DNA of 32,626 bases. Origin: Desulfobacula sp. GTDB lineage: Bacteria > Desulfobacterota > Desulfobacteria > Desulfobacterales > Desulfobacteraceae. The position numbers and the translations under genes were made by a program. How positions within the stretch are numbered: position 1 is the stretch's first letter; each line of letters begins with the position of its first letter. This document shows positions 2,829-16,976 of this stretch, piece after piece. Under the pieces are notes generated by a model. It was not told where the DNA came from. It ran no database searches and saw nothing but the letters and a program-made list of their open reading frames with translations. The stretch spans positions 1 to 32,626 of the forward strand of contig NZ_JABZFL010000092.1 of the NCBI RefSeq assembly GCF_014237455.1, given 5' to 3'.

Positions 2829-3734
2829 TTATTTTTCAAAAATTTCGTTAAGTGCTGACCCCACATCTGAAAAGAAAAATGAATACCCTGACTCCGTAAG
2901 ATTTTTAGGAATCACTCTTTGGCTTTTTAAAAGAGAACCGCCAAGTTCACCCATTATTGCCTTGATCATAAAGGATGGGGCAGGCATAAATGCAGGTCTG
3001 TTTAATGCATGACCCAACGCTTTGGCAAATTGCTTCTGCCGGACAGGCGTGGGTCCCGTAAAATTAAATATGCCCTCAAGTTCTTCGTTTTCAACAATGA
3101 ATTCAACCGCTTTTTCAAGATCTTTAACATGTATCCATGGAAACCACTGGCGGCCGTCACCCAGAGGGCCACCAGAGAACAGCTTAAATGCAGGAACCAT
3201 CAAAGACAGGGCCCCTCCATCCCCGAGAACAACACCGAATCGCATGACTGCGACACTGACACCTTTTTCTCTGGCCCTTAACCCTTCTTTCTCCCAATCC
3301 GTACACACCTTTGCCAGAAAATTCTTTCCCGGGGTTCTTTCTTCGGTTAACAAATCTTCCTTGCAATCTCCATAAATTCCAACAGCAGAAGCTGTCAAAA
3401 GCTTTTGAGTTTTTCCATTCTCAATGGCATTGATAATATGTCGGGTTGTTAATATGCGGGAGTCATAAATTGCTTTTTGGGTTTTTTTTGTCCAATACCG
3501 AAAAATATTTCGACCGGCCAAATTAATAATAATATCCGATCCTGCAACGTGGTCCTGCCACTTTCCTTCGACAGAAGTATCTGAACTGATCCATTCAAAT
3601 CCTTTAAATTCCATTGAAAAGGGATGGGTTTGAGACGTACCCATACCGGTTACGTGGTATCCTTTTGATAAAAAAAGGCCGGCAAGCCTTTTCCCGATAA
3701 AACCTGAAGCACCTGTGATTAGTATTTTTTTCAT
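2829..3734 (-). CDS. TIGR01777-family (YfcH-like) NAD(P)-dependent epimerase
   Basis: A 301-residue short-chain-dehydrogenase-fold protein. The N-terminus reads KKILITGASGFIGKRLA, the GxxGxxG dinucleotide-binding loop of the extended SDR class. INLAG (about residue 93), the SAVGIYG segment and the conserved HVKDLEKAV segment match the TIGR01777/YfcH subfamily. The C-terminal stretch VIPKNLTESGYSFFFSD is the DUF1731-type tail of the same proteins. Substrate and role are unknown for the family. It diverges from the HIT gene and has about 120 bp between its stop and the rubrerythrin-like gene. Confidence 0.85.
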   Translation of the reverse strand: MKKILITGASGFIGKRLAGLFLSKGYHVTGMGTSQTHPFSMEFKGFEWISSDTSVEGKWQDHVAGSDIIINLAGRNIFRYWTKKTQKAIYDSRILTTRHIINAIENGKTQKLLTASAVGIYGDCKEDLLTEERTPGKNFLAKVCTDWEKEGLRAREKGVSVAVMRFGVVLGDGGALSLMVPAFKLFSGGPLGDGRQWFPWIHVKDLEKAVEFIVENEELEGIFNFTGPTPVRQKQFAKALGHALNRPAFMPAPSFMIKAIMGELGGSLLKSQRVIPKNLTESGYSFFFSDVGSALNEIFEK

Positions 3735-5146: not shown

Positions 5147-5161
5147 GTCGCTTTTTTGCGA
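5147..5161 (+). promoter_or_regulatory. Candidate upstream activator site, copy 1
   Basis: GTCGC-N5-TGCGA, a short dyad, lies in the gap between mlaC and the first NifU-like gene. Its right edge is 97 bp upstream of the -24 GG of the sigma-54 element at 5256. The same dyad with the same spacing occurs at 5725-5739, 98 bp from the second sigma-54 element. Position and symmetry fit a binding site for a sigma-54 activator. No activator gene is present in the window. Confidence 0.5.
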
Positions 5162-5255
5162 TATTTTATAAACCAATATCTGTTTCCAAACTCCTCTCAT
5201 TTTATAACCTATTAAAATAATTAAATTATTATCTATCCAGCCTCTGGGCTCAATT

Positions 5256-5272
5256 TTGGCATAGTCTTTGCT
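5256..5272 (+). promoter_or_regulatory. Sigma-54 promoter 1
   Basis: TTGGCATAGTCTTTGCT matches the -24/-12 consensus (TTGGCACG-N4-TTGCW), with the GG and GC dinucleotides exactly 12 bp apart. It lies 37 bp before the start codon of the first NifU-like gene, leaving a short leader. One consensus position (C after GGCA) is T. Confidence 0.72.
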
Positions 5273-5308
5273 TTGTTTATTTATATTTTTTTAAGGGAAT
5301 AAACAATA

Positions 5309-5704
5309 ATGTATCACAATACTACAGATTTTTTACAAGACCACTCTTTAACATATATAGAAATGGCTTTAAGGACAGACTGGATTGAAAGAGTTGCCAA
5401 TCCTGATGGATATGGGAGAAGAACAGGAGACTGTGGAGATACAGTAGAATTTTTCTTAACCCGTAAAAATAATATTCTTCAATTTGTCTCTTTTTGTGTC
5501 CAGGGCTGTATGAATACAACGGCTTGCTGTAATACGATTGTCAGATTTGCCAAAGGAAAATCCATTGAATCGGCCTGGAACATCTCCCCGGATCAGGTAA
5601 ACAATTTTTTAAAAACACTTCCCGAAGATCATTTCCATTGTGCCGAGCTTGCAGTTGGCGCACTATACCTGGCTCTGACTGATTTAGTATCTGACAACCC
5701 TTAA
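5309..5704 (+). CDS. NifU/IscU-like iron-sulfur scaffold protein, copy 1
   Basis: A 131-residue protein of the NifU N-terminal type, on which Fe-S clusters are built before transfer. All three cluster-ligand cysteines are present: Cys42 in GDCGD (with the Asp that makes clusters labile), Cys67 in QGCMNT, and Cys111 in HCAELA. Extra cysteines at 63, 73 and 74 are unusual. The N-terminus lacks the standard IscU opening and instead reads DWIERVANPDGYGRRTG, a form shared with the second copy at 9202. It is driven by its own sigma-54 element and followed by a dyad that may end transcription or activate the next promoter. I infer that it serves the neighbouring ATPase cluster. Confidence 0.85.
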   Translation: MYHNTTDFLQDHSLTYIEMALRTDWIERVANPDGYGRRTGDCGDTVEFFLTRKNNILQFVSFCVQGCMNTTACCNTIVRFAKGKSIESAWNISPDQVNNFLKTLPEDHFHCAELAVGALYLALTDLVSDNP

Positions 5705-5720
5705 AATGGAAAACGATTCG

Positions 5721-5744
5721 AATGGTCGCATAACTGCGACCATT
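5721..5744 (+). promoter_or_regulatory. Perfect 10-bp inverted repeat; activator site copy 2 or terminator
   Basis: Arms AATGGTCGCA and TGCGACCATT are separated by TAAC. The core GTCGC-N5-TGCGA (5725-5739) is identical in pattern to the site at 5147-5161 and ends 98 bp before the -24 GG of sigma-54 promoter 2. As RNA it would make a stable hairpin just after the first NifU-like gene. The following T-run is broken (TCTTTATCC), so a terminator role is possible but weak. Both functions could coexist. Confidence 0.6.
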
Positions 5745-5834
5745 TCTTTATCCTTCAAACATCAAAATCTTTGGATACTATATAACATGCTTAAATTATT
5801 CATTTATTGTCCACCATTTGTTTTATTCTTCACC

Positions 5835-5851
5835 ATGGCACATGGCTTGCA
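5835..5851 (+). promoter_or_regulatory. Sigma-54 promoter 2
   Basis: ATGGCACATGGCTTGCA contains TGGCAC-N5-TTGCA, a textbook -24/-12 element with GG at 5837-5838 and GC at 5849-5850. It lies 36 bp before the start codon chosen for the pseudo-receiver gene. Transcription should therefore begin near 5862, just ahead of the AAGGAG ribosome binding site. This fits the known sigma-54 dependence of orange-protein operons in Desulfovibrio. Confidence 0.82.
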
Positions 5852-5887: not shown

Positions 5888-6292
5888 ATGATTCATGTAC
5901 TACTGGTCAGCCGGGAAAAAAGTGTTTTCAAAGAACTTGAAACAGCCTTTTCAGATAATAAAATAACCACCGAATGGACAGATACGGCAGAAAAAGCTCT
6001 TTCTATGCTTTCCAAAGAAAAATTTGACCTGTTCATCACAGAGGAACAACTTCCGGATATGACAGGAAGGAACCTTATCGAAAAAGTCCTGTTTAAAAAT
6101 GCCATGATGGATAGTGTGGTTTTAAGCGCATTGTCTCATAAGGATTTTCATGAAGCCTATGAAGGCTTAGGCGTTTTGATGCAGTTTCCTGTGGTACCGG
6201 GCAAAGAACAGGCCCGGGATCTTTTGGATCACATAAACCGCATTGCCCGGATTGCAGGCCAAACAAGCAAACCAAAAGGAGAACCTATCTGA
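5888..6292 (+). CDS. Degenerate response-regulator receiver domain protein
   Basis: A 134-residue single-domain protein with the receiver fold pattern: VLLVSREK at the first strand, FDLFITEEQLPDMTG at the phosphorylation site, and a C-terminal helix. The start at 5888 follows AAGGAG and the sigma-54 promoter; a longer reading from 5807 would start upstream of the promoter. Key receiver residues are changed. The acidic pair after strand 1 is gone (Ser-Arg-Glu), the phospho-acceptor Asp is Glu (ITEEQLP), and the conserved Lys near GVLMQFPV is absent. It therefore cannot use normal Asp phosphorylation. The Glu may mimic the phosphorylated state, or the protein may act as a binding adaptor. It overlaps the next gene by 1 nt (TGATG), so it leads the operon. 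Confidence 0.72.
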   Translation: MIHVLLVSREKSVFKELETAFSDNKITTEWTDTAEKALSMLSKEKFDLFITEEQLPDMTGRNLIEKVLFKNAMMDSVVLSALSHKDFHEAYEGLGVLMQFPVVPGKEQARDLLDHINRIARIAGQTSKPKGEPI

Positions 6293-7146
6293 TGATTATC
6301 AGTATTGCAAGCGGTAAGGGAGGAACCGGAAAAACAACTGTCTCTACCAACCTTGCACTGTCTATTGAACAAGAGGTGCAACTTTTAGACTGTGATGTTG
6401 AAGAACCCAATTCACATCTTTTTCTTAATCCGGTAATAGAAAAAAAAGAACAGGTCATTGCTCCTGTACCGGAAATTGACCTTGAAAAATGCACATTTTG
6501 TAAAAAATGCATGGACATTTGCAGGTATGGTGCCATTGCTGTGTTAAAAGATAATGTCCTTACCTTTGAAAACCTGTGCCATTCATGTGGCGGCTGTTTT
6601 GAGGTCTGTCCTGAAAATGCCGTTATGGAAAAAGAACGATCCCTGGGTGAAATCGAGCAGGGTTCTTCAAGCGGCATCTCTTTTATTCATGGCCGCCTGG
6701 AAGTAGGACAGGTAATGGCACCCCCCATTATTAAAAAAGTAAGATCATTTACTGATCCAAATCTTGTCACCATTATCGATGCACCTCCGGGAACCTCATG
6801 CCCGGTCATTGCAGCAATGAACGGGGCTGATTTTGTCCTTCTGGTAACCGAACCCACCCCTTTTGGTCTTCATGACCTCAAGCTCGCCGTTGAAACCGTG
6901 AGAATTCTTGACTTACCCCACGGGCTTGTCATCAATCGTGCAGGCCTGGGCAATGACGATGTAAAAATTTATGCCGAAAAGGAAAATATTCCCATACTCA
7001 TGGAGATTCCTTTTGATAAAGAAATTGCACGGATTTATTCCAACGGTCAAATGGTTGTGGACAAACTCCCTGAATATAAACTCAAATTTCAGGACTTATT
7101 CAGGAGAATAGAGCAATTGGTAGAAAAGAGAGGGCACAACTCATGA
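6292..7146 (+). CDS. MinD-superfamily P-loop ATPase with inserted 2[4Fe-4S] ferredoxin, copy 1
   Basis: A 284-residue ATPase with a deviant Walker A motif (SGKGGTGKTT, residues 8-16) and the IIDAPPGTSCPV switch region. A ferredoxin domain is inserted near residues 60-112. Its cysteines 67, 70, 73, 77 and 96, 99, 102, 106 form two CxxCxxCxxxC motifs, each with ligands for one [4Fe-4S] cluster. This architecture is found paired in anaerobes, including the orange-protein (ORP) locus of sulfate reducers, and is thought to act in metal-cluster assembly or delivery. The gene overlaps the preceding gene by 1 nt and the next, a paralogue, by 4 nt (ATGA), so the pair is probably made in equal amounts and may form a heterodimer. 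Confidence 0.88.
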   Translation: MIISIASGKGGTGKTTVSTNLALSIEQEVQLLDCDVEEPNSHLFLNPVIEKKEQVIAPVPEIDLEKCTFCKKCMDICRYGAIAVLKDNVLTFENLCHSCGGCFEVCPENAVMEKERSLGEIEQGSSSGISFIHGRLEVGQVMAPPIIKKVRSFTDPNLVTIIDAPPGTSCPVIAAMNGADFVLLVTEPTPFGLHDLKLAVETVRILDLPHGLVINRAGLGNDDVKIYAEKENIPILMEIPFDKEIARIYSNGQMVVDKLPEYKLKFQDLFRRIEQLVEKRGHNS

Positions 7147-8060
7147 GAGAGCTGGTTATTTTAAGTGGAAAAGGCGGAACAGGAAAAACAACCATTACGG
7201 CAGCCTTTGCTTCCCTGGCTGAGAGCATGATATTTTGTGATGCAGATGTTGATGCCGCAGATCTTCACCTGATTTTAGAACCTGATTTTAAACTATCCTC
7301 GGATTTTATCGGCGGTAATGAAGCGGTGATCGATCCTGACAAATGCACCCAGTGCGGTCGATGTCTTGAGGTTTGCAGATTCGATGCTGTCAGATTTGAT
7401 GCTGACACGAACACCTATGAAGTTGATCCCATTGAATGCGAAGGATGCGGGGTTTGCTTTGATCTATGCCCGGAACAGGCCATTGATTTTCCCGAAACCA
7501 TCTGTGGAGAATGGTATATTTCTGATACAAGGTTTGGTCCCATGGTTCATGCAAGGCTTGGCATTGCCCAGGAAAATTCAGGCAAACTGGTGGCCCTTGT
7601 CCGGCAGGAAGCAAGAGAAATTGCAAAAAATAAAAACCTTGATCTGATTCTAACAGACGGCCCTCCGGGTATCGGATGCCCGGTTATTGCCTCCATCGGA
7701 CAGGCGACAGCCATACTGATCATTGCAGAGCCAACGGTTTCAGGCATCCATGACCTGGAAAGAGTGGGACAGCTTTCCAGACATTTTAACATCCCTGCCA
7801 TGGTCTGTATCAATAAGTATGATCTGAACCCTGATCAAACAAAAAAAATTGAAGATCTTGCCAAAGAAAACAACATTGCCATTGTGGGTAGAATCTCATT
7901 TGATCAAACCTTCACAGAAGCCATGATCCAGGCAAAAACCATTTTTGAATACAACGAAAATTCACAGGCCAGTATTGAAATACGGCAGGTATGGGATAAT
8001 ATTCTATCTCTGCCAGAGTTTAAAAATCCTGTGACCAATAATATAATGCAACATATATAG
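7143..8060 (+). CDS. MinD-superfamily P-loop ATPase with inserted 2[4Fe-4S] ferredoxin, copy 2
   Basis: A 305-residue paralogue of the preceding gene. The Walker A motif is LSGKGGTGKTT (residues 7-17) and the switch region is LTDGPPGIGCPV. The inserted ferredoxin has cysteines 68, 71, 74, 78 and 99, 102, 105, 109. Compared with its partner it has IGCP instead of TSCP after the GPPG/APPG loop and a longer C-terminal helix. The Cys in both GCPV and SCPV motifs is a recurring feature of these ferredoxin-MinD proteins. The pair is followed 13 nt later by a dinitrogenase-cofactor-family gene with an AGGAG site, the arrangement expected for an ORP-type cluster. Confidence 0.88.
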   Translation: MRELVILSGKGGTGKTTITAAFASLAESMIFCDADVDAADLHLILEPDFKLSSDFIGGNEAVIDPDKCTQCGRCLEVCRFDAVRFDADTNTYEVDPIECEGCGVCFDLCPEQAIDFPETICGEWYISDTRFGPMVHARLGIAQENSGKLVALVRQEAREIAKNKNLDLILTDGPPGIGCPVIASIGQATAILIIAEPTVSGIHDLERVGQLSRHFNIPAMVCINKYDLNPDQTKKIEDLAKENNIAIVGRISFDQTFTEAMIQAKTIFEYNENSQASIEIRQVWDNILSLPEFKNPVTNNIMQHI

Positions 8061-8073
8061 GAGTGATAAAATT

Positions 8074-8460
8074 ATGAAAAGCGGAAGAATAGCAGTCCCT
8101 TCAAACGGTCAGGGCGGCCTTGACGGAACAAGAGCCGGCCATTTTGGACATTGTGATGTATTTACGTTTATTGACGTGGAAGACGGTGAAATCAAAGAAG
8201 TATCTGTCCTCCAGAATCAGGAGCATGCCCAGGGTGGTTGTATGGTACCGGTTAACCTCTTGTCTGACAACAGAGTAACCGCATTGATTGTCGGTGGTAT
8301 CGGCATGCGGCCTTTGATGGGCTTTAAACAGGTAGGTATTGATGTATATCACGATGATCAGCGGGCAGAGATAGAACCTGTGGTAAAAGATCTTATAGCA
8401 GGCAACCTGGCTGAAATTACAAATGATCAGGTCTGCGGTGGTGGCGGCGGACAGGTATAA
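8074..8460 (+). CDS. NifX/NifB-C-terminal/ORP-family protein, copy 1
   Basis: A 128-residue protein of the dinitrogenase iron-molybdenum cofactor biosynthesis family (ribonuclease-H-like fold), which binds Mo/Fe/Cu-sulfur cofactors. Visible features are IAVPSNGQGGLDGTRAGHFGHCDVF at the N-terminus, HAQGGCMVPVNLL, the ALIVGGIGMRP turn, and a C-terminal CGGGGGQV tail that adds another Cys. The His-rich N-terminal loop and the GGC motif are likely metal ligands. The ribosome binding site is AGGAG. It sits between the ATPases and its paralogue. Whether its cofactor is Mo-Cu, as in the orange protein, or Fe-based cannot be read from sequence. Confidence 0.82.
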   Translation: MKSGRIAVPSNGQGGLDGTRAGHFGHCDVFTFIDVEDGEIKEVSVLQNQEHAQGGCMVPVNLLSDNRVTALIVGGIGMRPLMGFKQVGIDVYHDDQRAEIEPVVKDLIAGNLAEITNDQVCGGGGGQV

Positions 8461-8484: not shown

Positions 8485-8844
8485 ATGAAAGTAGCTGTTA
8501 CATCACAGGGAGATACGCTGGATTCCCAAGTCGATCCAAGATTTGGAAGGGCTGCGTATATCCTCATCATAGATACGGAAACACTTGAATTTGAAGCATT
8601 TGATAACAATGAAAATAAAAATTCATTCAAAGGCGCCGGCACTCAGGCTGCGGCGATGGTCAGTGAGAAGGGGGCAGAGGTATTGCTGACAGGATTCTGC
8701 GGACCCAATGCCTTTACAACCCTGGAAACTGCCGGTGTAAAAGTGGCCAATGATCAAAGCGGCCGGATAATCGATGTGGTACAGAAGTTTAAGCAGGGCA
8801 ATGTTGTTTATGCCAAAGATGCTAACAAAGACGGCCACTGGTAA
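8485..8844 (+). CDS. NifX/ORP-family protein, copy 2
   Basis: A 119-residue protein of the same family as its upstream neighbour but of the other branch. It opens with MKVAVTSQGDTLDSQVDPRFGRAAYILIID, the typical start of ORP/MTH1175-like proteins, and has AAAMVSEKGAEVLLTGFCGPNAFTTLETAGVKV in the middle. A single Cys (in GFCGPNA) remains. Length is close to that of the Desulfovibrio orange protein, a small periplasm-free cofactor carrier with a Mo-Cu sulfide cluster. It is the last gene before a hairpin terminator, so the sigma-54 unit may be 5888-8844 with partial read-through. Confidence 0.82.
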   Translation: MKVAVTSQGDTLDSQVDPRFGRAAYILIIDTETLEFEAFDNNENKNSFKGAGTQAAAMVSEKGAEVLLTGFCGPNAFTTLETAGVKVANDQSGRIIDVVQKFKQGNVVYAKDANKDGHW

Positions 8845-8944: not shown

Positions 8945-9199
8945 ATGCCCCTTTATGAATTTAAATGTGTGGACTGCGGTGAGCATAGTGAAATCCTCAT
9001 TATCGGAACGCAGGACAAATCCATATGCGAATCATGCGGCAGTACAAACATGACAAAACAGATATCAGCCCATTCTTCACTGTCCGGGCCTGCCAAAAAC
9101 AGCATGCCTGGTCCCGGTGATACTGCATGCTGCGGATCTTCACCCGGCCAGGCCGCCGGTTGTGCCGGTCCGGGAAGCTGTTGTGGAAAGAGTTTTTAA
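8945..9199 (+). CDS. FmdB-family zinc ribbon protein with Cys-rich tail
   Basis: An 84-residue protein starting MPLYEFKCVDCG, the FmdB/CxxC_CxxC_SSSS signature, with Cys8, Cys11, Cys28 and Cys31 as zinc ligands. The start at 8945 follows AAGGA; an earlier in-frame start at 8888 lies within the hairpin region. The family takes its name from a regulator of formamidase and amidase genes, but most members are uncharacterised small metal-binding proteins. The tail after residue 60 is rich in Cys, Gly and Pro (ACCGSSPGQAAGCAGPGSCCG), adding five further Cys. That could bind metal and is notable beside a cluster-assembly locus. Confidence 0.8.
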   Translation: MPLYEFKCVDCGEHSEILIIGTQDKSICESCGSTNMTKQISAHSSLSGPAKNSMPGPGDTACCGSSPGQAAGCAGPGSCCGKSF

Positions 9200-9201
9200 T
9201 C

Positions 9202-9630
9202 ATGAATAATCTGGATGAATTTTTAGATAACCTTCAAAACGAAATATTTGAAGATGCAAAAAAGGCCCTTGGTGAAAAAGGTTTTCAACGATGGCGCAAT
9301 CCAAAATATAATGGGAAAATGGAAAATCCGGATGGTCATGCCAGCGTTACTGGAGAATGCGGTGACACCATGGAAATATATTTAAAATTTAAAAATAACC
9401 GGATTTCTGATGCATCCTATTTTACCAACGGCTGTGCTTCAAGTTCTATTGCAGGTTCCTTTGCCTCAGAATTAACCCTGGGCAAAGATCCGGATGAAAT
9501 CACGGATATAACCGCAGAAACCGTTTTAAATACAATCGGAAAGCTCCCTGAAAAAGATTTGCATTGCGCAAGTCTTGCCGCCCGAACCGTTCAGGAAGCC
9601 TTGAGTAATTATATGACCCAAAAAGGATAA
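9202..9630 (+). CDS. NifU/IscU-like iron-sulfur scaffold protein, copy 2
   Basis: A 142-residue paralogue of the gene at 5309. The three ligand cysteines are present: Cys53 in GECGD, Cys78 in TNGCASS, and Cys122 in HCASLA. NPDGHASVTGECGDTMEIYL aligns with NPDGYGRRTGDCGDTVEFFL of copy 1. An N-terminal extension (FLDNLQNEIFEDAKKALGEKG) is specific to this copy. The start at 9202 is 2 nt past the fmdB-like stop. A longer in-frame reading from 9127 would overlap that gene and is rejected. Two scaffolds in one locus suggest that different clusters or different recipients are served. Confidence 0.86.
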   Translation: MNNLDEFLDNLQNEIFEDAKKALGEKGFQRWRNPKYNGKMENPDGHASVTGECGDTMEIYLKFKNNRISDASYFTNGCASSSIAGSFASELTLGKDPDEITDITAETVLNTIGKLPEKDLHCASLAARTVQEALSNYMTQKG

Positions 9631-9634
9631 AAAT

Positions 9635-10156
9635 ATGGCCGTATACCGATATGGTGAAAGAGTTCCTCAAATTGGAAAGAACTCATATGTCAGTGATTCT
9701 GCAAGGGTCATTGGTGATGTAACCATAAAAGACAATTGCTATATCGGCCATGGCGCCATTGTCCGGGGGGATTATGGTAAAATCATCATTGGAACCGGAA
9801 CCGCCATAGAAGAGAATGCCATTCTTCATATCAGACCCAATGGCATTCTTGAACTGGAAGAAAGTGTTACCGTTGGTCACGGGGCCATTATTCACGGCAA
9901 ACAAATAAAATCCCATGCTGTCATCGGAATCGGCTCTGTTCTTGGATTTGATGTCGTCATAGGATCATGGACCATTGTAGCTGAAGGGTGCGTCGTGCCC
10001 CAGAATACGATCATTCCTGACGAGAAAATCACTGGTGGCGTCCCTTTTAAAATCATTGGGGATGTCAAACAAAAGCATAAGGATTTCTGGACATATGGGA
10101 AACAGCTTTATGTTGACCTTGCCCGCGAATATCCTGAAAAATTTGAAAAACTGTAA
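9635..10156 (+). CDS. Gamma-class carbonic anhydrase-like hexapeptide protein
   Basis: A 173-residue left-handed beta-helix protein built from hexapeptide repeats (VIGDVTI, YIGHGAI, VTVGHGAIIHG, VIGIGSVLGFDVVIG). The three zinc-ligand histidines of gamma carbonic anhydrases are present with the right spacing (His65, His82, His87). Such CamH/PaaY-type proteins are trimers; some hydrate CO2 and others are thioesterases or of unknown role. It starts 4 nt after the preceding stop and is likely cotranscribed. A link with the metal-cluster genes is by position only. Confidence 0.85.
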   Translation: MAVYRYGERVPQIGKNSYVSDSARVIGDVTIKDNCYIGHGAIVRGDYGKIIIGTGTAIEENAILHIRPNGILELEESVTVGHGAIIHGKQIKSHAVIGIGSVLGFDVVIGSWTIVAEGCVVPQNTIIPDEKITGGVPFKIIGDVKQKHKDFWTYGKQLYVDLAREYPEKFEKL

Positions 10157-11980: not shown

Positions 11981-13981
11981 ATGATTCCGTCTACTATAAT
12001 TGGGTTTATCAACAATGCAGCTCTCTTGTTAGCTTTGGGACTGCTCTATGATATCTTGACCTTGAGACAGGTTGGGGGGAAAACCTCTTTCAATCAAATG
12101 GTCACCGGAGTGATACTTGGGGGCATTGGTATTGCAGTTATGTCCAATCCATGGGAATTCACCCCCGGGGTTATCTTTGACACACGGTCGATTCTATTGT
12201 GCATTACAGGGTTTTTCTTTGGAACACTTCCGGTCATAATGACAATATTAATAACAGGCGCCTATCGGCTGTTTCTTGGCGGAGAAGGGGTTTGGACGGG
12301 ACTTGGGGTTATCGCCACATCTGGACTGGTTGGTTTGGCATGGCGGCATAAGCAAAAAAATGACCTGAAAAATGTGTCAATGAAGGAGTTGTATGCACTT
12401 GGCATGATTGTTCATGTTTTGATGCTTCTCTGGATGTTAACCCTGCCATGGCCCATAGCCAAAGAAGTTCTCTCCAGAATAACCCTTCCAGTCTTATTGA
12501 TCTTTCCTGTTGGAACGGCACTTTTAGGTCAACTGATGAAGAATCGGCATGCGAATAAACTGGCAAAGATGGAACTTAAAGAATCTGAAGAAAAATACAG
12601 GGAATTGGCAGATTCATTACCACAGAGTATTTTTGAAATTGATGAAACAGGCAGGGTTATCTATACAAACCAAACTGCTTTTGATCTTTTCAAGTACACT
12701 AAAGATGAATTTGACAAAGGGATAAATATTAGTCAAATAATAATTCCAGAGGATCATGACCGGGCACTAAAAAATATGCAAAGCATATTGAACGGCATCC
12801 AGTTAGGCGGTATAGAATACACGGCACTAAGGCATGACGGCACCACTTTCCCTGTTGTGATACATGCAAGCCTTGTTACTCGTAATGCAAAACCGATCGG
12901 TTTAAGGGGTTTGTTAATAGACATCAGTGACCAGAAAAAAATGGAGGAAAAATTAAAAAAAAGTGAGGAACGATATCGGAAGTATTTTGAAGATAATATT
13001 GTAGGCGCTTATATCTCAAGCCCTGGAGGGAAGCTGATTGCATGCAATCGGGAATATAAAAAAATATTTGGATTCGATAGCACTCAACAGGCTTTGGATA
13101 CGACTATTTCCAAAATTTTCGAGGTTCCTAATGAGAGGGCCGAATTCTTGAGACTTCTTAAAAAGAAAAAACGGGTGACTGGCTATGAATCTAAATTGAG
13201 AAAAATCAATGGGACACCTGTTCGGATGCTTGAAAATGCTTCAGGGGTTTTTGATGAAGAGGGCAACTTAAAACGTATAAGAGGGTTTTTAATGGATGTT
13301 ACTGAGCAAAGAAAACTTGAAGCTCAACTTCGGCAGGCCCAGAGGATGGAAACCATCGGTACCCTTGCCGGCGGTATTGCCCACGATTTCAATAATATTC
13401 TTTTCCCGATTTTAGGCCATACAGATATGTTATTAGCGGATATTCCTGAAGGCAGCCCGCTTCAAGATGGTCTGAATGAAATTTCCGCCGGTGCCTTGAG
13501 AGCCAAGGATCTGGTAAGACAGATCCTGACATTTTCCCGCCAGGATACTACCGAGTTGATCCTGATGAAGATGCAGCCGATTGTCAAAGAAGCATTAAAA
13601 CTGATCCGGTCGACCATCCCCACAACAATTGACATCACACAGGATATCAATGCGAATTGTGGTGCGATCAAAGCTGATCCCACACAACTTCACCAGATTA
13701 TAATGAATCTTACCACCAATGCGTATCATGCCATGGAGGAGACCGGAGGGGTCTTAAGCGTCAGTCTCAAAGAAATCGAATTAGGGAATGATGACGCAAT
13801 AAATCTTGATCTGGAACCGGGCACTTATGTCTGCCTTACTATAGCAGATACAGGCACAGGCATGGATAAGAATATAATAGAAAAAATCTTTGATCCATTC
13901 TTTACTACCAAAGAAGTAGGCAAGGGTACGGGGATGGGGATGTCAGTTGTCCACGGCATTGTTAAAAGCATGAAGGGGTAA
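11981..13981 (+). pseudogene. Hybrid sensor histidine kinase, 5' part (interrupted by IS66 element)
   Basis: The first 666 residues of a kinase. Order: five or more membrane helices resembling the LytS-type 5TM receptor domain (residues 5-190, with FDTRSILLCITGFFFG and YRLFLGGEGVW), PAS 1 (205-320), PAS 2 (330-445), HisKA (His468 in GGIAHDFNN), and HATPase with N-box LTTNAYHAM, G1 DTGTG and G2 GTGMGMS. The IS begins right after the G2 box, and its first bases GTAA supply the stop codon, so the last strand of the ATPase domain and the receiver are lost. Joining 11981-13977 to 16472-16976 restores one open frame of 833 residues. The truncated product might keep part of its sensing function but should lack normal kinase output. 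Ribosome binding site GGAG. Confidence 0.85.
13905..13977 (+). repeat. 73-bp direct duplication, left copy
   Basis: Identical over 73 bp to 16399-16471 and located directly against the left end of the IS66 element. It encodes TKEVGKGTGMGMSVVHGIVKSMKG of the kinase ATPase domain. A single copy is needed for the intact gene. IS66 elements normally leave 8-bp target duplications. Confidence 0.95.
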
Positions 13982-14063
13982 GCGCTCAACAAACCCCATC
14001 TTAAAAAATTCATAACCGTGTGTCATATTATGCTGACTTTATAATTTTTGTGAGGAGGCAAGC

Positions 14064-14384
14064 ATGATAACAGCATCAAGGCAAAATCAGCGAACTAAGA
14101 AACAAAAGTACTGGCAGCGTCATATTGAAAAGTGGTCCCAGTCCGGATTAAGCCAGACAGCATACTGTAGAGAATACAAGTTAAAAACCAAAAGTTTTAC
14201 TTATTTCAAGTCCAGACTAAAAAAGAAAAACCTGCCTGTGCAATTTGTTCAGGTGCCGGTTGAACCTGTGCGGGCGCCTTCTTTTTTAAAACTTAATATT
14301 GGTTCAAGTTTTCAAATTGACATACCCGATGGATTTTCTCAAAATACTTTGACACAGGTATTGCAAGTGCTTGGAGGCGTGTAA
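14064..14384 (+). CDS. tnpA: IS66 accessory protein TnpA
   Basis: A 106-residue small basic protein, first gene of the IS66 element. KYWQRHIEKWSQSGLSQTAYCREYKLKTKSFTYFKSRLKK (residues 12-51) is the helix-turn-helix typical of IS66 TnpA (IS2/IS911-like DNA-binding fold). The C-terminus is divergent. The start has AGGAGG upstream. It ends TAATG, overlapping the tnpB start by 1 nt. Its function in transposition is not well defined, though it is required in tested IS66 members. Confidence 0.9.
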   Translation: MITASRQNQRTKKQKYWQRHIEKWSQSGLSQTAYCREYKLKTKSFTYFKSRLKKKNLPVQFVQVPVEPVRAPSFLKLNIGSSFQIDIPDGFSQNTLTQVLQVLGGV

Positions 14385-14737
14385 TGTTTTTGCCGTCTGC
14401 CAATATTAAGGTGTATCTTGCCATGGGGTTTACTGATATGAGAAAATCTATCAATGGATTATCCATTCTTGTCAGCGAACATTTGGAACTTAATCCTTTT
14501 TCCGGCCATCTTTTTGTTTTCTGTAACAGGAAACGCAATATGGTTAAAATATTGTACTGGGACCAAAACGGATTCTGTTTGTGGCACAAGAAACTTGAAA
14601 AACATATCTTCATATGGCCTGATTCAAAAGAGCATATAAAAGCCATAGGCAAAAGAGAACTTGCCTGGCTGTTGGATGGAATTGACATCCATCAAAAGCA
14701 GGCTCATAAACCTTTAAATTATTCAATAATTTATTAA
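14384..14737 (+). CDS. tnpB: IS66 accessory protein TnpB
   Basis: A 117-residue protein of the IS66 Orf2 family (unrelated to the IS200/IS605 TnpB nuclease). Signature segments are YLAMGFTDMRKSINGL near the N-terminus, LFVFCNRKRNMVKILYWDQNGFCLWHKKLE in the middle, and the ELAWLLDGIDI end. It starts within the tnpA stop (TAATG overlap). Length is normal for the family. Its biochemical activity is unknown. Confidence 0.92.
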   Translation: MFLPSANIKVYLAMGFTDMRKSINGLSILVSEHLELNPFSGHLFVFCNRKRNMVKILYWDQNGFCLWHKKLEKHIFIWPDSKEHIKAIGKRELAWLLDGIDIHQKQAHKPLNYSIIY

Positions 14738-14779
14738 AAATCTATTTACAATTTCAAGTAGTTATGATATACAACCTGC

Positions 14780-16324
14780 ATGAATAATGAGGCTTGCACA
14801 GACACAAAAAATGATGATTTTTCCATTAGGGAAAAAGTATATATTGCTGATATTGCCTCTTTGAAAGAGCAGGTTCGTTCCCTGCAGGCCAAACTGTTTG
14901 GTCGCTCCAGTGAAGCAAAGATTACACTTGATGATAAACAGCTTAATCTCTTTGACACTTCTGAGGATGAACTGCCCATTACAGATGAACCCGATGAAGA
15001 AATTGAAATCCCGGGCCATAAACGTAAAAAGCCTGGAAGAAAGCCACTTCCTGATAATCTTCCTCGTATAGATGTTGAACATGATCTTACACCAGAAGAA
15101 AAACAGTGCCAATGCGGATGTATCAAATCACGGATTGGTAAAGAGGTATCAGAGCAGCTTGATATCATCCCTGCAAAAATGCAGGTAATCAGAAACATTC
15201 GTTACAAATATGCCTGTAAAAACTGTGAAGGTGTTGAAGATGACAAACCTGCTGTCACCATAGCAAGGATGCCTGATCAGATTATACCCAAAAGTATGGC
15301 AACTCCTGGACTTATTGCTCATGTTATGACTGCCAAATTTATTGATGCTCTTCCTTTTTACAGGCAGGAAAAACAGTTTGTCAGAATGGGCATTAAAATC
15401 CCAAGAGCCACCATGTGCAACTGGGCAATGAGGGTGTCTGGTGCCTGTGATATTATCCTTGACATGCTCAAGGCTGAAGTTCTTAAAAATCATTTAATCC
15501 ATATCGATGAAACAACACTGAATGTTTTAAATGAACCGGGAAGAAAAAAATCTTACATGTGGCTTTACAAATCAGGTCCGCCTGGAGCTCCTGTAATACT
15601 TTATGAATATCATGCATCCCGGTCAGGTGATGTGCCAAAAGCATTTTTAAAAGATTATCATGGTATTGTACAGACAGACGGATATAAAGGTTATGATTTT
15701 CTTGATCCTTTAAAAACCATAGTTCATGCGGGCTGCTGGGCACATGTCCGCAGAAAATTCACAGATGTAATCAAAGCTTCAGGGAAGAAAAATTCATCAG
15801 GTAATGCAGGTACAGCTTTAAAATTTATCTCCAGGTTGTATAAAATTGAAAAAATGGCCAGAGGAAATAACATTAGCCATGCAGACCTTTATTCTATCCG
15901 GCAAAGCAAGTCTCGTCCCATAGTAAAGGATTTTAAAAAGTGGCTTGACTCAAGGCTTGAAAAAGTACCACCAACAAGCCTGCTTGGCAAAGCCATAAAT
16001 TATACCCTCGGGCAATGGCATAGACTTACTCCCTTTCTTAAAGATGGTCGTATTCCCATGGACAACAATGCTGCAGAAAATGCCATAAGACCATTTGTCA
16101 TTGGAAGAAAGAACTGGCTGTTCAGTTGCACACCAGAAGGAGCCAGGGCAAGTGCAACCCTGTACAGCCTGATTGAAACGGCCAAGGCAAATAAGCTTGA
16201 GCCTTACTGGTATCTCAGATATCTTTTTAAAAACCTTCCTGAAGCAATGACTTCAGAAGACTTTAAACAACTTTTACCAATGTATGTTGATAAAGCAGCA
16301 CTCAACATACTTGATTATAAATAA
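14780..16324 (+). CDS. tnpC: IS66 transposase TnpC
   Basis: A 514-residue DDE transposase. The N-terminus has the leucine-zipper-like SLKEQVRSLQAKLFGRSSE. It is followed by an acidic linker, a zinc-finger region (CQCGC near residue 114, CKNCEG near 150) and the catalytic core. Candidate catalytic residues are Asp243 (HIDETTLN), Asp300 (QTDGYKGYD) and Glu433 (DNNAAENAIRPFVIGRKNWLF). The C-terminal IS66 domain (LEPYWYLRYLF) is present. All motifs are intact and there is no frameshift, so the enzyme could be active. The gap to tnpB is 42 bp. Confidence 0.93.
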   Translation: MNNEACTDTKNDDFSIREKVYIADIASLKEQVRSLQAKLFGRSSEAKITLDDKQLNLFDTSEDELPITDEPDEEIEIPGHKRKKPGRKPLPDNLPRIDVEHDLTPEEKQCQCGCIKSRIGKEVSEQLDIIPAKMQVIRNIRYKYACKNCEGVEDDKPAVTIARMPDQIIPKSMATPGLIAHVMTAKFIDALPFYRQEKQFVRMGIKIPRATMCNWAMRVSGACDIILDMLKAEVLKNHLIHIDETTLNVLNEPGRKKSYMWLYKSGPPGAPVILYEYHASRSGDVPKAFLKDYHGIVQTDGYKGYDFLDPLKTIVHAGCWAHVRRKFTDVIKASGKKNSSGNAGTALKFISRLYKIEKMARGNNISHADLYSIRQSKSRPIVKDFKKWLDSRLEKVPPTSLLGKAINYTLGQWHRLTPFLKDGRIPMDNNAAENAIRPFVIGRKNWLFSCTPEGARASATLYSLIETAKANKLEPYWYLRYLFKNLPEAMTSEDFKQLLPMYVDKAALNILDYK

Positions 16325-16398
16325 TACTTTTCAAAGAACTCCCCCAAATATCTCATGCTTTGACATGCTTGAACAGGTGGGGTTTATTGAGCGCTTAC

Positions 16399-16471
16399 CT
16401 ACCAAAGAAGTAGGCAAGGGTACGGGGATGGGGATGTCAGTTGTCCACGGCATTGTTAAAAGCATGAAGGG
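16399..16471 (+). repeat. 73-bp direct duplication, right copy
   Basis: Identical to 13905-13977, directly abutting the right IS66 inverted repeat. It restores the G2 box coding sequence to the downstream kinase fragment. It carries AAGGG at 16416-16420 ahead of an in-frame ATG at 16428. Confidence 0.95.
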
Positions 16472-16976
16472 AGCTATCCAGGTATATAGCGAGCCTGGTA
16501 AAGGAGCTGAATTTCGTGTTTGTTTACCAGTGGAACAGAGTTCTTTTGAAAAACAGAGTATCCAAATTCATGACGTAATACAGAGTGGAACAGAACAAAT
16601 TCTGTTTGTGGATGATGAAGCCGCAATCATTACAATGGGAAAACAGGTGCTGGAGCGCTTGGGGTATCAAGTTACTTCACGTACCAGCAGCCTTGAAGCC
16701 CTTGAAGCTTTTCGGGCTAATCCTGACAGATTTGATCTGGTCATCACTGATATGGCAATGCCGAATATGCCCGGAGACAAACTATCAACTGAGCTGATCA
16801 AAATACGTTCCGATATTCCCGTACTGCTTTGCACCGGGTTCAGTGAAAATATATCTAAAGAAAAGGCGGCATCTCTGGGAATTAAGGGGTTTATATTAAA
16901 GCCGATTGTGATGAAGGATCTTGCCCAGAAGATACGTGAAGTGCTGGATAATAATAACGCTGTATTCCGGAATTAA
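16399..16976 (+). pseudogene. Hybrid sensor histidine kinase, 3' part with receiver domain
   Basis: This is the remainder of the interrupted kinase. It reads from the duplicated G2 box through the end of the HATPase domain (AIQVYSEPGKGAEFRVCLPVE) into a full receiver domain: ILFVDDEAAI with the acidic pair, FDLVITDMAMPNMPGD with the phospho-acceptor Asp, LCTGFSE, and the GFILKPIV Lys. The receiver residues are all intact. After the insertion, an ATG at 16428 with AAGGG seven bases upstream could allow a 182-residue product made mostly of the receiver, transcribed from within the IS or by read-through. Confidence 0.85.

Follow-up and report, generated by a model that had tools for sequence, protein, structure and literature searches.

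Two neighbouring units, each preceded by a promoter region of the same layout, lie in the first third of the window, that is, the whole 32,626-nt stretch of DNA that was analysed. Their features are as follows:

5147..5161, +, upstream dyad of the NifU-like promoter, GTCGCTTTTTTGCGA (pattern match; similar spacing in relatives)
5205..5218, +, middle element TAAC-N4-TNAAWT of the NifU-like promoter
5257..5272, +, sigma-54 -24/-12 element of the NifU-like promoter, TGGCATAGTCTTTGCT (TGGCAY-N5-TTGCW scan)
5309..5704, +, NifU N-domain scaffold-like protein (Pfam PF01592)
5720..5745, +, extended dyad of the operon promoter, core GTCGCATAACTGCGAC at 5725-5740; also a terminator-like hairpin
5783..5796, +, middle element TAAC-N4-TNAAWT of the operon promoter
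5836..5851, +, sigma-54 -24/-12 element of the operon promoter, TGGCACATGGCTTGCA (TGGCAY-N5-TTGCW scan)
5888..6292, +, receiver-like protein (pseudo-receiver; PF00072)
6292..7146, +, MinD/CbiA-type ATPase with inserted 4Fe-4S ferredoxin motifs (profile matches)
7143..8060, +, second MinD/CbiA-type ATPase with inserted 4Fe-4S ferredoxin motifs (profile matches)
8074..8460, +, ORP-family (Nitro_FeMo-Co) protein (PF02579)
8485..8844, +, second ORP-family (Nitro_FeMo-Co) protein (PF02579)
8945..9199, +, FmdB-type zinc ribbon protein (PF09723, TIGR02605)
9202..9630, +, second NifU-like scaffold protein (PF01592)
9635..10156, +, gamma-carbonic-anhydrase-like hexapeptide protein, below the NCBIfam cut-off

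The product of 9635..10156 is the last in its unit to which a family name could be given. In the first NifU-like protein (5309..5704), the cysteines expected to bind a cluster (Cys42, Cys67 and Cys111) are invariant in 31/31 aligned rows. The receiver-like protein is without the usual acidic pair and lysine, and its expected phospho-Asp position holds Asp in 5 of 17 rows, these key positions having been assigned by eye. A gap of 183 bp, containing the second promoter, separates the NifU-like and pseudo-receiver genes. Elsewhere in the window (11981-16976), a gene that we take from its sequence to be a PAS histidine kinase is split by an insertion, presumably IS66-like (ORFs 14064-16324). On either side of this insertion lies a copy of a 78-bp direct repeat (13900-13977 and 16394-16471, 97%), whose length is far beyond that of the usual target duplication.

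A pattern scan of the window places GTCGC-N5-TGCGA at 5147-5161 and 5725-5739, exactly as the first-pass annotation had it. The pattern gives four strand-matches at three places in the 32,626-nt window against 0.02 expected; the second dyad matches on both strands, hence four strand-matches from three places. Across the 3.48-Mb assembly (113 contigs, 97.8% complete), these three places, all inside the window, are the only ones, and two of them stand ahead of sigma-54 elements. All three fall within 2.5 kb. The second dyad is larger than had been described, GTCGCA-TAAC-TGCGAC within a 26-bp inverted repeat with an 11-bp stem (5720-5745), and the first, TCGC-N6-GCGA, is weaker and less symmetric. 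The third place (3240-3254, minus strand), absent from the earlier list, lies in an ORF (2829-3734), and the window scan found no perfect -24/-12 element near it; we set it aside as probably a chance match, given that it is in a coding region and that the window's perfect -24/-12 elements are limited to 5257 and 5836.

The sigma-54 consensus TGGCAY-N5-TTGCW, judged by sequence only, occurs exactly twice in the window against 0.13 expected, once ahead of each unit; assembly-wide it gives 23 matches and its reversed version 3. One sigma-54 gene was found in the genome. The original description of two well-matched elements at distances of 97 and 98 bp from the dyads was right, but their GG pairs start at 5258 and 5837, not at 5256 and 5835. 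The genome search for the dyad near -24/-12 elements that had been proposed with that description returned the strict dyad with a sigma-54 element 85–114 bp downstream at just these two promoters in the assembly, with 0 for the reversed control. Looser forms of dyad and element add two assembly places on contig C15 and one on contig C99, the latter (spacing 116 bp) being set aside.

Between dyad and sigma-54 element, each promoter has a middle element that had been overlooked and that precedes the T of TGG by 52 and 53 bp, respectively. The combination of this element with a following sigma-54 promoter is confined, in the assembly, to these two promoters. Of 41 non-redundant promoters from relatives, 15 contain TAAC-N4-T-N2-AAT (shuffled mean 0.4, maximum 3) and 20 contain a looser form (shuffled mean 3.8, maximum 9), counts that are no independent test of enrichment, as the element was picked by eye from overlapping data. 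In 20/20 of these promoters the looser form starts 49–53 bp before the -24 element. Its position is like that of the IHF sites described in the accessible part of a report on the orp promoters of Desulfovibrio vulgaris (PMC3897727). The strict IHF consensus, which is that of E. coli, was not clearly enriched in the 41 promoters (0/41 forward and 2/41 reverse, against 0.4 each), and for this reason we leave the protein that would bind the middle element unnamed.

To follow the layout into relatives, we used a loose pattern (GTYGC-N5-TGC, then TGGY-N-Y-N5-TTGC at 88–117 bp), which matched 125 times in the 86 genomes covered from the family to which Desulfobacula belongs, with hits in 60 of them, against 2 for the reversed control; loose patterns were framed after the window and relatives had been viewed, so these counts are not independent of the discovery. 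The spacing from dyad to promoter is 94–101 bp in 93 of the 125 family matches, where an even spread over 88–117 bp would give about 33. A smaller group (15/125) is spaced by 109–112 bp, about one helical turn beyond the main group. Outside the family, 47 matches were counted by hand against 39 reversed in 233 genomes of the class, which is no net enrichment, and we therefore make no claim beyond the family; as judged from these counts, the dyad-promoter signal is one that belongs to the family of Desulfobacula.

Of the named relatives found, the nearest is a Desulfobacula genome from a metagenome, whose second ATPase is 95% identical. We read 40 regions, namely those holding genus matches outside the window and five hand-picked others, and these contain 42 dyad-promoter pairs, of which 32 precede a NifU-like, pseudo-receiver, MinD-type ATPase, ORP-family or C15-type receiver-kinase gene (for C15, see below) and 10 were left unclassified by the script. 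In two genomes (L227 in G012 and L229 in G019), a dyad and sigma-54 promoter lie ahead of a long gene, alike in both, which from its sequence we presume to resemble carbon monoxide dehydrogenase. Both the NifU-like and the pseudo-receiver gene were read in 11 genomes; the former ends 10–76 bp ahead of the latter in five of them (L042, L044, L069, L045/L070 and L046/L071), all with a dyad and sigma-54 element upstream of the NifU-like gene, and the gap is 130–198 bp in the other six. Gene linkage at 10–76 bp in 5/11 genomes and the shared promoter layout support, at the level of sequence, the earlier proposal that the NifU-like gene is part of the same system as the operon.

The sigma-54 activator domain is matched at 37 places of the assembly (the last four weakly), none of which is on the contig of the window (C6). 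For these places 30 loci were fetched, 4 of them without an ORF by our filter, and 26 of the 37 yielded a query protein. The activator gene that the first-pass annotation had called for has a candidate at C85:32164-33507, whose product (the C85 protein) combines a PAS sensor, an AAA+ domain with GAFTNA and a Fis-type HTH, and has orthologues beside the operon in several relatives; the NCBIfam matches that might name it fall well below their cut-offs. Among 20 relatives' loci with a long activator match, the best match is C85 in 11, C15 in 5 and C96 in 4, the C96-best loci including L050 and L069, which lie near the NifU-like gene (43–46% identity) and whose genomes also encode a C85-type protein. 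The operon or NifU-like gene appears in the flank of 7/30 loci of C85 relatives (~1.5 kb fetched on each side), and a dyad with a sigma-54 element is found downstream of the activator gene in 6 of those 7; the spacing beside linked activators is often longer (~123–133 bp in L197, L198, L201 and L210). In the activator tree, C85 belongs to one 28-row clade (99/94) that includes those operon-linked activators of the family that had been entered in the tree, with C15 outside; the trait of lying beside the operon is not clustered on this tree, 98 of 500 shuffles being as low.

A GTTGCA-N4-TGCAAC palindrome lies just upstream of the C85 gene, and 11 of the 30 activator loci have a GTYGC-N5-TGC site at most 80 bp upstream of the match start, seven of these being full palindromes; the palindrome ahead of C85 suggests that this activator may regulate its own gene. 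OrpR, the regulator of orange-protein operons, senses redox via an iron-sulfur cluster in its PAS domain. A C-x8-C-x3-C type motif is present in 42 of the 45 activators listed, and the PAS domains of C85 and C15 both carry C-x8-C-x3-C. Within its neighbourhood (L145, G000:C85, 7578-12373), the C85 gene sits between an ORP-family gene and a pair comprising a presumed ferredoxin-like gene and a large oxidoreductase gene that looks, from reading its sequence, to be of the molybdopterin type. Among the 35 genomes common to the pattern and activator searches, the four without a close activator (cut at E 1e-130, which also admits relatives of ~50% identity) had 0 pattern matches, whereas 25 of the other 31 were matched (Fisher p 0.004, only a guide as the genomes are related and two of the four are only 70–80% complete). 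Six genomes have a close activator and no pattern match. One genome without a close activator (G001, L040; 97% complete) retains the NifU-like gene, pseudo-receiver and ATPases; scripts returned no loose-pattern match in it and nothing resembling a sigma-54 site across the 600 bp upstream of its pseudo-receiver gene.

We considered whether the 5720-5745 repeat might serve the NifU-like gene as an intrinsic terminator and nothing more, and resemble the first dyad by accident. Its hairpin is a strong one (11-bp stem, -16.2 kcal/mol, z -6.35, T-rich tail) and begins 16 bases beyond the end of the NifU stop codon, and the terminator scan also lists the first dyad, with 5 pairs. A terminator, however, has no need of the distance to the -24 element that is preferred across the family, and asymmetric GTCGCATTTTTGCA versions, unable to form a long hairpin, hold the same place in relatives; furthermore, no plus-strand gene ends just before the first dyad, which folds weakly (z -1.59). 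We regard a terminator and nothing else as very unlikely, and the second dyad may have both roles, ending the NifU transcript and binding an activator. That the upstream regions resemble each other by chance, without a shared activator, is barely credible: the lower symmetry of the first dyad speaks for it, but the 125 family matches against 2 reversed, their preferred spacing and the related genes behind the sites speak against it.

A different question is which activator would use the shared site, because a paralogue encoded on C15 (C15:10493-11878; 66% identical to the C85 protein) matches that protein in domain layout and in its PAS cysteines, and the gene of the paralogue adjoins two sigma-54 promoters with GTTGCA sites. 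This neighbourhood (L152, G000:C15, 10493-14517) comprises the activator gene, the two GTTGCA sites with their promoters, two ORP-family genes and a receiver-histidine-kinase gene, and appears as a second, paralogous circuit. We tried GTC versus GTT as a code separating the two activators and rejected it, as both forms are found at both gene sets across the genus. This mixing, together with the 5/20 loci whose adjacent activator best matches C15, would fit action by the C15 activator, or by both, in place of the C85 protein; in contrast, the operon-linked activators entered in the tree group within the family with C85, not C15, and C15-type proteins adjoin an ORP-family operon of their own in G006, G008, G009, G011, G023 and G000. 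We judge control by C15 or by both to be unlikely. The similar GTTGCA sites beside the C15 paralogue nonetheless weaken the assignment to C85 and leave room for cross-talk or a C15 assignment, and our confidence in it is further reduced by L050 and L069, where activators of another type lie near the NifU-like gene.

Ultimately, we favour the reading in which the two units probably form one regulon, transcribed from sigma-54 promoters under a C85-type activator. The idea of one activator for both units, put forward when the matching dyads were noticed, gains support from the preferred spacing, the near-empty reversed control and the C85 orthologues that adjoin the operon in relatives. The elements, their spacing and conservation, the orthology of the activators and the linkage of the genes are direct observations, and from them we infer the following course. 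The C85 protein most likely binds GTYGCA-N4-TGC dyads centred ~104 bp upstream of the -24 GG at both promoters, presumably in response to a redox signal. A bend at the middle element, introduced by IHF or a similar protein, would bring the bound activator to sigma-54 RNA polymerase, and ATP hydrolysis would then open both promoters together, such that the NifU-like scaffold would be made along with the pseudo-receiver, the ferredoxin-bearing ATPases and the ORP-family proteins.

More tentatively, and with somewhat less than even confidence, we propose that the NifU-like scaffold is an assembly protein devoted to the ORP pathway, that in this family one redox-responsive activator and a strict three-part promoter co-produce a cofactor-assembly line, and that a paralogous circuit serves another ORP-family operon. 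If true, an anaerobic assembly line of scaffold, ATPases and ORP-family proteins would be produced from a promoter composed of dyad, bend element and -24/-12 element. To our knowledge, the role of the orange-protein system is unsettled, and the layout ties this system to a scaffold for iron-sulfur or metal-cluster assembly. A predicted motif, a named candidate activator and a gene list make the system testable outside Desulfovibrio, and the precision of the layout allows further members to be recognised from sequence inside the family of Desulfobacula.

A link between the ORP complex and iron-sulfur cluster delivery, by way of P-loop ATPase and dinitrogenase-cofactor domains, is also drawn, in the accessible part of its description, for the iron-sulfur carrier MrpORP (PMC6345978). 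Unlike MrpORP, the window operon has separate ferredoxin-motif ATPases and separate ORP-family proteins, and the best of the ten proteins scanned against the MrpORP profile (NCBIfam NF041136) scored 52.7 bits against a cut-off of 450.

The orp operons of Desulfovibrio encode MinD-type ATPases and ORP-family proteins, and the window operon encodes both. The likeness to the orp operons and DVU2106 of Desulfovibrio vulgaris Hildenborough, as the accessible portions of two reports describe them, extends to sigma-54 promoters, palindromic activator sites (at -131 and -88 there; dyad centre near -128 here, with GG as -24), further sites (putative ones here) between activator sites and promoter, and a single-component activator with GAFTxA (GAFTDA in DVU2106, GAFTNA here) (PMC3897727, PMC4641369). 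DVU2106 also represses its own promoter, and here a palindrome precedes the C85 gene, the likening of the two proteins being by published description (PMC3897727, PMC4641369, in the same portions). In contrast to D. vulgaris orp, the activator in this genome is unlinked to the operon, whereas relatives show such linkage in 7/30 activator loci, and the two units are codirectional, the first being a NifU-like scaffold gene and the second headed by a pseudo-receiver. By its sequence features, the window system is best regarded as a variant of the orp regulon already known, in which the putative activator lies away from the operon and a separate copy of the promoter precedes the NifU-like scaffold gene.
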